This document shows positions 45,779-54,896 of a stretch of 64,000 bases of DNA, piece by piece (position 1 is the first letter of the stretch; the number at the start of each line of letters is the position of its first letter). The DNA is from a virus. The DNA lies in the IMG/VR virus record IMGVR_UViG_3300025889_000083, positions 40,149 to 104,148 of that record; one strand, written 5' to 3'. Both the position numbers and the translations under genes were made by a program. The notes beneath the pieces were generated by a model. It did no database searches. It worked only from the letters and a program-made list of their open reading frames with translations, and was not told the DNA's origin.

Positions 45779-45812
45779 GAATTTTTTTACTTTTTTTGCC
45801 TTGCTGTTTTGA

Positions 45813-45888
45813 TTGACTCACCCTAAAATTCATAAATGAATTTTAGGGTGTGTTTCGCTTTTTGTCAATAGATTTTTTAAAAAAAATT
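45813..45888 (+). repeat. Direct repeat copy A containing a 15-bp-arm palindrome
   Basis: About 75 bases nearly identical to 48134-48208. It includes the inverted repeat with arms 45819-45833 and 45836-45850 (CACCCTAAAATTCAT and its complement, 2-base loop), then TGTTTCGCTTTTTGTCAATA. Together with copy B it flanks a 2.3-kb segment. Confidence 0.8.
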
Positions 45889-48097: not shown

Positions 48098-48133
48098 TTT
48101 TAATCCTAAAAAAATCCGCTTTGGCTTTTTAAC

Positions 48134-48208
48134 TTGACTCACCCTAAAATTCATAAATGAATTTTAGGGTGTGTTTCGGTTTTTGTCAATACCTTTTTAA
48201 AAAATATT
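48134..48208 (+). repeat. Direct repeat copy B with 15-bp-arm palindrome
   Basis: Nearly identical to 45813-45888. The inverted repeat arms are 48140-48154 and 48157-48171. It marks the right end of the 2.3-kb segment with the GIY-YIG-like gene. Confidence 0.8.
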
Positions 48209-48252
48209 TTTAAATGCGAATGAGAATCATTCTCATTTGGAAAAATCAACTT

Positions 48253-48445
48253 TTGTCCACAGGGGCGCGCCTTCGGCGCCAAAGTGCAAAAGTGAAGTGC
48301 CAAAGTGATGGCGCTTGCGCCAAAGTGCGAAAGTGAAGTGCGAAAGTGAAGTCTTTCTGTGAGCTGGCGCGCGTGCCTGGCGGGGTCGCATAGTCTTTTT
48401 TTTTTATTGGCACTTATCCACAGGTTATCCACAGACTTATCCACA
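48253..48445 (+). other. Candidate replication origin: iterons and DnaA boxes
   Basis: Three perfect DnaA boxes TTATCCACA at 48414, 48425 and 48437 (11-12-base spacing, same orientation) and a variant TTGTCCACA at 48253. Between them, 48281-48352 holds about eight AAGTG units in tandem (AAAGTGCG, AAAAGTGA and similar), broken by GGCGCTTGCGCC. This combination resembles iteron origins of plasmids and some phages. GC-rich repeats stand out against the AT-rich surroundings. Confidence 0.65.
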
Positions 48446-48536
48446 GGCAAAAATATGCGGGTGCTTCCCGCCCACTACCACCCTGATATGATAGCACACA
48501 ATTTTCTTTTTGTCAATAGCTTTTTTTAAAAATAAA

Positions 48537-49596: not shown

Positions 49597-49625
49597 TTGA
49601 CAAGCCACCAAAAAACCTCTATAAT
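49597..49625 (+). promoter_or_regulatory. Sigma-70-like promoter
   Basis: TTGACA (49597-49602), 17-base spacer, TATAAT (49620-49625), followed by ATACTTAT as in other early promoters. Confidence 0.85.
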
Positions 49626-49679: not shown

Positions 49680-49997
49680 ATGGCAACAACTAATTACACA
49701 GACGAAATGGTATCATCAATGGTTTCAGCTTACGAGGCTAACCCATCAAGAGATACAGTAGATTCTCTAGCTTCACAATTTGGCAAGACTACTAGAAGTA
49801 TCATTGCTAAACTCAGCAGAGAAGGCGTATACCAAGCTCAACCAAGACTAACAAAGTCAGGCGAGCCAGTGGTTAGCAAAACAGAGTTAGTTTCTCAGAT
49901 CACCACTTTAACAGGTATCGAGTTCACTAACCTAGCTAAAGCAGGTAAGTCAGACTTACAAGCTCTAGTAGACTTCTTTACTGCCGAACAGCAGTAA
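49680..49997 (+). CDS. HTH-type DNA-binding protein, paralogue 1
   Basis: 105 residues from ATG 49680; an in-frame ATG at 49635 right behind the promoter would add 15 residues. The start used matches the paralogue at 54522 (TNYTDEMVSSMV versus SNYTEAQVTEMV). SLASQFGKTTRSIIAKLSREG is a good helix-turn-helix. This family occurs widely in T4-like marine phages. Likely an early regulator. Confidence 0.7.
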   Translation: MATTNYTDEMVSSMVSAYEANPSRDTVDSLASQFGKTTRSIIAKLSREGVYQAQPRLTKSGEPVVSKTELVSQITTLTGIEFTNLAKAGKSDLQALVDFFTAEQQ

Positions 49998-50070: not shown

Positions 50071-50099
50071 TTGACAAAAGGTTAAATTTCATTTATAAT
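50071..50099 (+). promoter_or_regulatory. Promoter of short RNA (repeat unit 1)
   Basis: TTGACA (50071-50076), 17-base spacer, TATAAT (50094-50099), then ATACTTATATTTGAGA. About 70 bases around it are duplicated at 50208-50276. Confidence 0.85.
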
Positions 50100-50105
50100 A
50101 TACTT

Positions 50106-50225
50106 ATATTTGAGATTGAGAAAGATCAAAATTTCTCAAACGCAGGGTTGCTCAGTTCAAGGAAGAGCATTAAAGGATAATTCCTCAACAACGCCCAAAG
50201 CTACCTCCAAGAAAATACATCAAAA
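50106..50225 (+). ncRNA. Candidate short structured RNA
   Basis: A gap of about 120 bases with no gene between two strong promoters. Helices: TTTGAGA (50109-50115) with TCTCAAA (50134-50140), GCTC/GAGC (50150-50153/50165-50168) with an 11-base loop resembling a tRNA D-arm, AGGA/TCCT, and an enclosing GTTG/CAAC. It has no T-arm, so it is not a tRNA. Confidence 0.45.
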
Positions 50226-50231
50226 TTTTTC

Positions 50232-50260
50232 TTGACAAGAGGTTAGACTTCGGATATAAT
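50232..50260 (+). promoter_or_regulatory. Promoter of the giant RNA (repeat unit 2)
   Basis: TTGACA (50232-50237), 17-base spacer, TATAAT (50255-50260), then ATACTTATATTTGAGA, identical to the downstream part of the 50071 promoter. Confidence 0.88.
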
Positions 50261-50266
50261 ATACTT

Positions 50267-51310
50267 ATATTTGAGAAGAAACAAGTTCTCGAATGACTTT
50301 TCGGAAAATGAGTTAATCTCTCTGTGAGTCGGACTTGTTTGCCTACCACTCAGGCGAAAGAAGTGGCGTAGTGTGAAATTCCGACAAAAGTTCACCCCAA
50401 TGGCTAACGGGTTAATACGCTCCTCATGATCGGGCAATAGAGGTTAATATTGCGACCCGTGATGTTCAGTAATCGTTATAGGACTGTTCCCCCTGCTCAT
50501 TAGGTGGTTATCAGAATGAGTACTTCGTGTGCGAGTATTGAAGGACACACCGAGTATATACGCTCGTCGATAGTATATCAGAACACCTGCTCTGAGATGC
50601 AGGTCAGATGCTCGGCATTTTATGCAGCGTTTTTCCAGAGAACTGTAGACTGTAGGAAAAACAGCACTCTTAAAAGAGTTTGCCCTAGTGGGTAATAGGA
50701 AAAAATAAATGTATCAGCTTCGGCGGTAAAATAATCCTTCCACAAATGCAGGCTCTTTTAAGAGTAAAACTCTTAGGCACTAACAGTTTCGGCTGTGAAT
50801 ACCTAGCCCACATTGCCTTAACGCAAGTAGTAGGACGAAGTAAGTGCCGCCCACATGTTGGCGTTATCTAAGTGCAAGTTTGACATTGTAAGCACTTGAC
50901 CTAAGTATGCAAATACAGGAACGAGCCAATGTCCTTGTGGTAAAAAACACGCTACTGGCAATGCCAACCGATACCTGAGAAGATCTATGGGTTGGCTCTC
51001 ACAAGGTGGAAACGCTGATGATGAGTAGCTATCTTCTCTTAGTAGCAACATGCAACGAAAGTGCCTATACGAGCAATGGGTGGACGAAGTAGTTCAGAGG
51101 ACGAGGCGAGATTCAGCTTTAGCTGTCAACCCCATCAAGTAATGTGAGTCCAGCGAAAAAACACCCTAATGACGGCACAGTTTATGGAACATGGGTGCTT
51201 GCAACCCCACGACCAAAAGTCGACTATAATATGAGTGAAATACTGTAGCAAATGCGAAACACGACTCTGACAGTGATAAAACAACGGGCATATTTTTTTA
51301 GACATTCAGT
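50267..51310 (+). ncRNA. Giant structured noncoding RNA, GOLLD-like candidate
   Basis: About 1,040 bases with a perfect promoter, no coherent ORF, and dense complementarity. Helices include AAACAAGT/ACTTGTTT (50279/50333), ACGGGT/ACCCGT (50407/50455), GTTTTTCC/GGAAAAAC (50629/50655), a 13-bp helix 50666-50678/50753-50765, AAGTGC/GCACTT (50870/50892). Several pairs cross as pseudoknots: GTCGGA/TCCGAC (50328/50380), GAGCCAA/TTGGCTC (50923/50992) with CCTTGTG/CACAAGG (50933/51000), and GAGAAGAT/ATCTTCTC (50977/51031). Size, complexity and phage setting fit large ornate RNAs such as GOLLD or ROOL, but membership is untested. Confidence 0.75.
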
Positions 51311-51358
51311 TTTACATAGCCTAAATAAAAACTAATCAAAATCAAAAAACGCGGTTTG

Positions 51359-51430
51359 AACCCTATGATGGAAAAGAAGTGTGAGTTGACGGACAACATC
51401 ACTCCCCTGCCTCATAGGGTTTTTTGTTTT
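51359..51430 (+). terminator. Rho-independent terminator with long stem
   Basis: AACCCTATGA (51359-51368) and TCATAGGGTT (51412-51421) followed by TTTTTTG-TTTT. The loop carries a further GUUG/CAAC-based hairpin. It probably ends the giant RNA transcript. Confidence 0.8.
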
Positions 51431-51478: not shown

Positions 51479-51507
51479 TTGACAAAATTCCTTAACTCCT
51501 GTATAAT
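51479..51507 (+). promoter_or_regulatory. Main early promoter
   Basis: TTGACA (51479-51484), 17-base spacer, TATAAT (51502-51507). An AAGGAG ribosome site and ATG 51532 follow. It drives the long overlapping early operon. Confidence 0.88.
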
Positions 51508-51531: not shown

Positions 51532-51732
51532 ATGAACTTAAATATTATGCGAAAAGATACCATAGAGCTATTAGCACATCAGTATGATGTCGGTGCTTAT
51601 GGGCGTGCCTGCAGAAAAGAACTTCGTAGGCGAAAAAATATAGGTTTCTGGCTAGGTCCGATTGTATCACCTGTCAAAATGAAAGAAGAACGCGAGTCCA
51701 CAGTAGGAACTGTTAGGGTGGTGCGTAAGTGA
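51532..51732 (+). CDS. Small basic early protein
   Basis: 66 residues, Arg-rich (YGRACRKELRRRKNIGFWLG). Perfect AAGGAG site. First gene of the early operon. Its stop overlaps the next GTG start. No family recognised. Confidence 0.65.
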   Translation: MNLNIMRKDTIELLAHQYDVGAYGRACRKELRRRKNIGFWLGPIVSPVKMKEERESTVGTVRVVRK

Positions 51733-54396: not shown

Positions 54397-54532
54397 ACTC
54401 GAAATGGAACTAGAGTGGATTGAAATGAAACAGAAGTATGGCAGAGAAGAAGCAATCTATGTCTGTGCTGATCTGTGGAGTAAATCCACTTTTGAAGTAG
54501 AACAATTAATAAGGAAATGGAATGGCAAGTAA
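54380..54532 (+). CDS. Small helical early protein
   Basis: 50 residues (MPSKDELEMELEWIEMKQKY, EEAIYVCADLWSKS). Overlaps both neighbours by 11-17 bases. Codon pattern and overlaps look like a true gene. Function unknown. Confidence 0.5.
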   Translation: MPSKDELEMELEWIEMKQKYGREEAIYVCADLWSKSTFEVEQLIRKWNGK

Positions 54533-54896
54533 CTATACAGAGGCTCAGGTAACAGAAATGGTTGCTAGATATACCGAGAAACCTGATAGAGAAACAGTAG
54601 AAAATCTAGCAAAAGAACTCAATAAGAGTATAAAATCGGTGATAGGTAAACTTTCAAGAGAAGGAGTCTATCAAAAGACTGAGTATCTTACCAAATCAGG
54701 TGAGAAACCAGTAACAAAACTAGAATTAGTAAGTGCGTTAGGTGATGTATTAGATATACCCGATCAATGGCTAGAAGGCTTAGAGAAAGCACCAAAACCA
54801 GTACTCAAGAGAATAGTTGACATGCTTGAAGAAGCTCAGGCAAATTATGAAAACAATGAAGAAGGACTACAATTATACTACAAGGAAAACATATGA
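54522..54896 (+). CDS. HTH-type DNA-binding protein, paralogue 2
   Basis: 124 residues, clearly related to 49680-49997: YTEAQVTEMVARYTEKPDRET, then LAKELNKSIKSVIGKLSREG and TKSGEKPVTKLELVSALGD. C-terminal extension is acidic. Duplicated regulators of this type may act on different early promoters. Confidence 0.7.
   Translation: MASNYTEAQVTEMVARYTEKPDRETVENLAKELNKSIKSVIGKLSREGVYQKTEYLTKSGEKPVTKLELVSALGDVLDIPDQWLEGLEKAPKPVLKRIVDMLEEAQANYENNEEGLQLYYKENI

Follow-up and report, generated by a model that had tools for sequence, protein, structure and literature searches.

A large, pseudoknotted noncoding RNA at a fixed locus in uncultured T5-like phages

Introduction

GOLLD and ROOL are large, phage-linked RNAs that form hollow cages from RNA alone (PMC12286853). 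GOLLD (RF01998) is longer than 800 nt, pseudoknotted, divergent in its 5′ part and often found near tRNA genes (PMC12286853). It assembles as an RNA-only 14-mer nanocage. ROOL (RF03087) has many pseudoknots and lies near tRNA islands. OLE, also large, ornate and noncoding, belongs to Gram-positive extremophilic or anaerobic bacteria and has protein partners. Phage T5 itself carries RNAX (AY543070, 40848-41566), a 719-nt stable RNA that has its own promoter, is conserved in enterobacterial T5-like phages and lies beside tRNA-Arg. Its sole Rfam match is a tRNA-like part (E = 3e-6). Matches to RNAX were present in 521 phage records.

Here we analyze a large noncoding RNA gene in a stretch of 64,000 nt (hereafter, the window), which is the final 64 kb of the 104,148-base IMG/VR record IMGVR_UViG_3300025889_000083. 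The large terminase subunit (TerL) of this phage is about 49% identical to the terminases of T5-like phages, and a small gene upstream of the RNA has a weak D5-like match. Judged by these sequence comparisons, the phage is therefore an uncultured bacterial virus distantly related to T5.

Results

Comparison with described large RNAs

The window RNA resembles RNAX in being a large noncoding RNA of a T5-like phage behind a promoter of its own, and might be its counterpart by descent. We consider this clearly unlikely. The two align over the promoter only and their bodies have no homology; RNAX is shorter and has different neighbors (tRNA-Arg); and no tRNA-like part was found in the window RNA by tRNA and Rfam searches.

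The first-pass annotation had considered either a new class or a divergent GOLLD, and had proposed a search with models of known large RNAs. We searched Rfam with the window and its relatives at gathering and permissive (E ≤ 10) thresholds. Within the window, the covariance models of GOLLD, ROOL, OLE, HEARO and raiA had no hit up to E = 10, and no large-RNA family, GOLLD and ROOL included, matched in the relatives. A new class is thus favored. If the RNA were instead a distant variant of GOLLD or ROOL, its size, its phage location and the tRNA genes that several relatives have some kb downstream would be accounted for, but in view of the missing covariance-model matches, permissive thresholds included, we regard it as very improbable. 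The likeness to GOLLD extends to the length above 800 nt, the pseudoknots and the divergent 5′ part; the window RNA, in contrast, occupies another locus and has a domain order that varies among relatives. Similarly, it shares phage linkage, size and pseudoknots with ROOL, but is predicted to have about 1160 nt as against 659 nt for the ROOL studied by cryo-EM. Apart from its size and ornate noncoding character it is unlike OLE, which had no Rfam match here and is an RNA of Gram-positive extremophilic or anaerobic bacteria. Among open-licence papers, none that we found describes an RNA like this one in phages of this kind.

A predicted transcription unit behind a D5-like gene

Between a gene ending at 49997 and a gene starting at 51532 lie a short noncoding unit and then the large RNA. 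The features of the locus are as follows.

49683-49997, + strand: small gene of 104 amino acids with a D5-like N-terminal region (phrog_323, weak, E = 3.8e-4), the syntenic upstream neighbor
50071-50197, + strand: second perfect promoter (50071-50099) and short noncoding unit upstream of the large RNA
50232-50260, + strand: sigma-70 promoter, TTGACA-N17-TATAAT, with a similar promoter before the gap in relatives
50267-51427, + strand: gene of the large structured RNA, noncoding, its transcript predicted at about 1.16 kb, with full-length homologs and covariation
51359-51425, + strand: intrinsic terminator AACCCTATGA/TCATAGGGTT plus T6, with an inner hairpin (z = -3.0)
51479-51507, + strand: separate perfect promoter of the next gene (consensus match)
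51532, + strand: start of the next gene downstream

The perfect promoter that had been noted ahead of the gap matches the consensus at 12 of 12 positions, as do promoters at 49597, 50071 and 51479. From its position, we infer that the RNA starts near 50267. The 3′ end had to be moved. The terminator had been called at about 51290-51310, but no stem precedes the T-run at about 51290-51297; the intrinsic terminator has its stem arms at 51359-51368/51412-51421, followed by T6. The annotation was right that the RNA is giant, but its estimate of about 1 kb was some 120 nt shorter at the 3′ end than the RNA predicted here. Both full-length homologs (L050 and L071) keep the terminator, and in its inner hairpin the aligned sequences, read by eye, appear to differ by compensated changes. 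The T-run appears to lie inside a hairpin loop, the arms of which change together among relatives (by eye, uncounted), as in GGGC/GCCT in the window and ACGCAG/CTGCGT in L075.

Could the region instead belong to the downstream gene, which is on the same strand, as an exceptionally long leader or a regulatory stretch? This is hardly likely, because the terminator intervenes and the gene at 51532 has a separate perfect promoter, which makes the large RNA its own transcription unit.

The locus sits between a leftward structural block and a rightward block of small genes, and its double promoter recurs in 44 of 78 non-redundant loci. The short unit at 50106-50197 resembles a truncated tRNA by eye, its two ends being GGGTTG...CAACGCCC, and its GCTC/GAGC arm becomes GCAT/GTGC in L071. 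Other loci have other small units in its position, with tRNA-Glu in L036. A second D5-like paralog at 54522-54896, 44% identical to the first, has no noncoding gap after it. In a largely noncoding region at 48412-48446, ACTTATCCACAG occurs three times in tandem, each copy with the DnaA-box consensus TTATCCACA. A palindromic terminator-like element is present in two 86-nt copies (88% identical) about 2.3 kb apart, at 45803-45888 and 48124-48209, accompanied by further repeats and inverted repeats. The stretch between these copies may be an insertion, or an injection or terminal-repeat-like region.

Relatives at the same locus

A search with the upstream D5-like protein gave at least 590 related places, of which 80 were kept, and further scans added to them. 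The locus pattern (a promoter, 0.6-1.9 kb and another promoter, shortly after the upstream gene) was detected in 148 of the 177 fetched stretches (78 non-redundant). Two of the 78, L176 and L177, were unconvincing on inspection. About 76 non-redundant viral loci have a promoter-noncoding-promoter unit of 0.7-1.6 kb after the same small D5-like gene. In L137, L151 and L163, which the promoter pattern missed, an ORF-poor gap of about 1 kb was present. Several records seem to be marine, judging by their metagenome numbers.

Full-length matches to the window RNA were found at the same locus in L071 (78% identity over 1142 nt) and L050 (76% over 1132 nt). Many other loci matched it by short blocks in the same gap, with shared modules in other positions. 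Clustering by sequence gave a small number of deep clusters: a main group with 38 members, three further groups with 8, 7 and 7, and the window's own with 3. Searches with DNA patterns for further close homologs gave few new ones, and blastn against isolated phages gave nothing meaningful, whether the query was the window RNA or any of four subfamily representatives. Host or prophage copies were sought with the core 18-mer; its 8 hits in 257 Gb of cellular genomes are at chance level (roughly 7.5 expected).

Downstream of the RNA, at a distance of a few kb, seven relatives (L050, L071, L079, L080, L105, L117 and L121) have clusters of two to four tRNA genes (types Asp, Gly, Glu, Thr, Ala and Ser). 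No tRNA gene was found within the 64-kb window. L176 contains a permuted tmRNA gene of alphaproteobacterial type (L176:5866-6351) in the same viral record as a D5-like gene, which hints at alphaproteobacterial hosts for that phage.

Compensatory changes in the window RNA

We scanned every possible helix in a three-sequence alignment of the window, L050 and L071, with 150 column shuffles as the null. Helices with at least two compensated pairs numbered 14, against a shuffle mean of 3.3 and a maximum of 10; none of the 150 shuffles reached 14. For local helices, the count was 11 against a null mean of 0.75. The recurrent complementary segments reported earlier along this RNA therefore exceed chance. 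At least three pseudoknots had been predicted; pseudoknots are indeed present, and two crossing helix pairs in the window carry compensatory changes.

Fifteen helices contained 23 doubly changed pairs as compared with 0-1 in slid controls, most of these helices having been chosen on the same alignment. When three helices were examined in ten sequences, seven of which had not been used for choosing, they were 100% paired with seven doubly changed pairs. The following elements were recognized.

50281-50338, + strand: helix 50281-50288/50331-50338 (two doubly changed pairs in three sequences) with inner helix 50295-50299/50326-50330 (one in three sequences; 100% paired with three in ten sequences)
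50431-50459, + strand: hairpin GCAATA/TATTGC and its base, the upper helix 100% paired with three doubly changed pairs in ten sequences
50551-50578, + strand: H-type pseudoknot, 50551-50555/50562-50566 crossing 50556-50561/50573-50578, two doubly changed pairs per helix
50629-50662, + strand: helix GTTTTTC/GAAAAAC in a conserved stretch (TTTATGCAGCGTTTTCC in relatives), 100% paired in ten sequences, mostly invariant
50697-50738, + strand: A-rich module NNNN-AAAAAkwAATG-NNNN ... N'N'N'N'-AAATAA-N'N'N'N', covarying stems in relatives
50869-50933, + strand: second pseudoknot, 50869-50874/50893-50898 crossing 50882-50887/50928-50933, four and two doubly changed pairs
51110-51128, + strand: core hairpin GATTCAGCTTTAGCTGTCA (GATTCA-n-TTTA-n-TGTCA), stem variants compensated

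The global folding energy of the window RNA was unremarkable relative to shuffles (z = -1.05). Complementarity within a single sequence is thus insufficient as proof, which the relatives supply. As the full-length window type has three members, much of the 3′ half rests on near-invariant sequence.

Covariation in the relatives and the strand that folds

A covariation test on homologs, as the first-pass annotation had recommended, was carried out using a script modeled on R-scape (G-test with APC and tree-based substitution shuffling). In the 38-member main group, all 9 significant pairs were at least 80% standard (Watson-Crick) pairs, and in a 33-member alignment 12 of 13 significantly covarying pairs were Watson-Crick. 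A coding control, the shorter upstream coding region, gave 0 significant pairs. A 19-member alignment gave good pairs in 5 of 11 and 4 of 8 cases; the remainder were not Watson-Crick and are probably phylogenetic noise, so we relied on the 33- and 38-member sets. Some of the significant pairs crossed each other, indicating pseudoknots in the relatives. When a pseudoknot module of the main group was aligned separately (31 sequences, 18 pairs), 98.4% of it was paired. Its main helix had double changes at all 7 pairs and is crossed by a three-pair helix. The layout first proposed, a large, ornate, pseudoknotted noncoding RNA, agrees with the long noncoding region, its extensive covarying structure and its pseudoknots.

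RNA helices could be mimicked by the palindromes of an element that acts as DNA, for example an origin of replication or an injection-related site, and the location between the two gene blocks, with three DnaA-box-like repeats and large palindromes nearby, might suit such an element. We therefore seeded helices of the main group on strict Watson-Crick covariation and then counted G-U and A-C cells. The ratio was 46:3 in the main group and 35:5 in a second alignment; in the window's three sequences it was 6:3, which is weak. Folding energy did not discriminate between the + and - strands. The large excess of G-U over A-C in the covarying helices of the relatives indicates that it is the + strand RNA that folds. 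Neither DNA pairing nor an RNA of the opposite strand would be expected to produce such an excess, and the perfect promoter and terminator in one orientation, together with the pseudoknots, further speak against a DNA element, which we judge highly implausible. The window RNA is almost certainly a real structured RNA class.

Noncoding status

The gap had been described as lacking a coherent ORF, and the longest + strand ORF in the window gap has 63 amino acids. The relatives agree: no coding conservation was found in their gaps, where + strand ORFs in the 78 loci average 55-59 amino acids against 56 in shuffles. An overlooked protein-coding gene on either strand can practically be dismissed, since the longer minus-strand ORFs (82.6 amino acids on average against 68.0 in shuffles) begin, when longest, at differing places from locus to locus and are lengthened by minus-strand stop trinucleotides being scarcer than + strand stops across the whole region.

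Modules and mosaic evolution

The A-rich module, in which two covarying stems flank an A-rich internal loop that hardly varies, was present in 38 of 78 loci, in all main subfamilies; its stem cells were 98% paired, compared with 65% in shuffles. Its distance from the RNA start is about 30 nt in most of these loci but about 430 nt in the window type. The core hairpin occurs in exactly one copy in each of 46 of the 78 loci, at very different positions, and seems in L133 to stand in place of another hairpin. A covariance model of the main group's pseudoknot module matched nothing in the window convincingly, and the architecture of the window RNA is thus its own.

Among the 80 loci kept of at least 590, the D5-like protein of the window is closest to that of L003, whereas the window RNA is closest to those of L050 and L071. 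The RNA thus seems to be transferred as a cassette. The locus is occupied by a mosaic superfamily, or by several RNA types sharing parts. One function common to relatives of such differing architecture is an assumption.

Discussion

The window RNA follows a consensus promoter, does not code for protein, pairs as + strand RNA, contains pseudoknots, exchanges modules with its relatives and keeps a fixed site after a D5-like gene. We think it likely that it represents a new class of large structured RNAs in uncultured T5-like phages, one that stands alone and probably acts in trans.

By analogy with GOLLD and ROOL, of which its size, pseudoknots and conserved A-rich loops are reminiscent, our tentative first choice of mechanism is an RNA scaffold, cage or oligomer. 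Transcription by host RNA polymerase with sigma-70 would be strong and early, as the perfect host-type promoter adjoining the D5-like gene suggests. The transcript would run to the terminator at 51425 and fold as a compact multi-domain particle, possibly holding several RNA copies, as in GOLLD and ROOL. During take-over it might then serve as scaffold, cage or decoy, its partner being a component of the host or of the phage.

Ranked after the scaffold or cage is an RNA decoy or sponge against host defense or regulators, with module exchange driven by an arms race. The probable early expression, the high divergence, the swapping of modules and the recombination that separates the cassette from its neighbor gene would all fit this anti-defense role. 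To our knowledge, however, known phage decoys require nothing like a 1-kb ornate fold, and we place this explanation on the unlikely side.

Returning to the scaffold or cage, a fuller version is possible though doubtful: an undescribed kilobase RNA class, fixed in a widespread T5-like group, that forms an RNA-only particle and evolves at one locus, in at least two architectures, by swapping modules (pseudoknots, the A-rich two-helix module and the movable hairpin).

Very few natural RNAs so large and complex are known, and the phage-linked ones, GOLLD and ROOL, have no known function. Here a further class stands at a fixed place in dozens of phage records, in variants that have gained, lost or moved modules. 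Such natural variants offer a comparative handle on what these RNAs require. T5 RNAX seems worth a covariation study. Our results suggest that a large stable RNA, such as RNAX in T5, may be a general feature of T5-like phages; if so, the old question of RNAX would become testable in laboratory T5.
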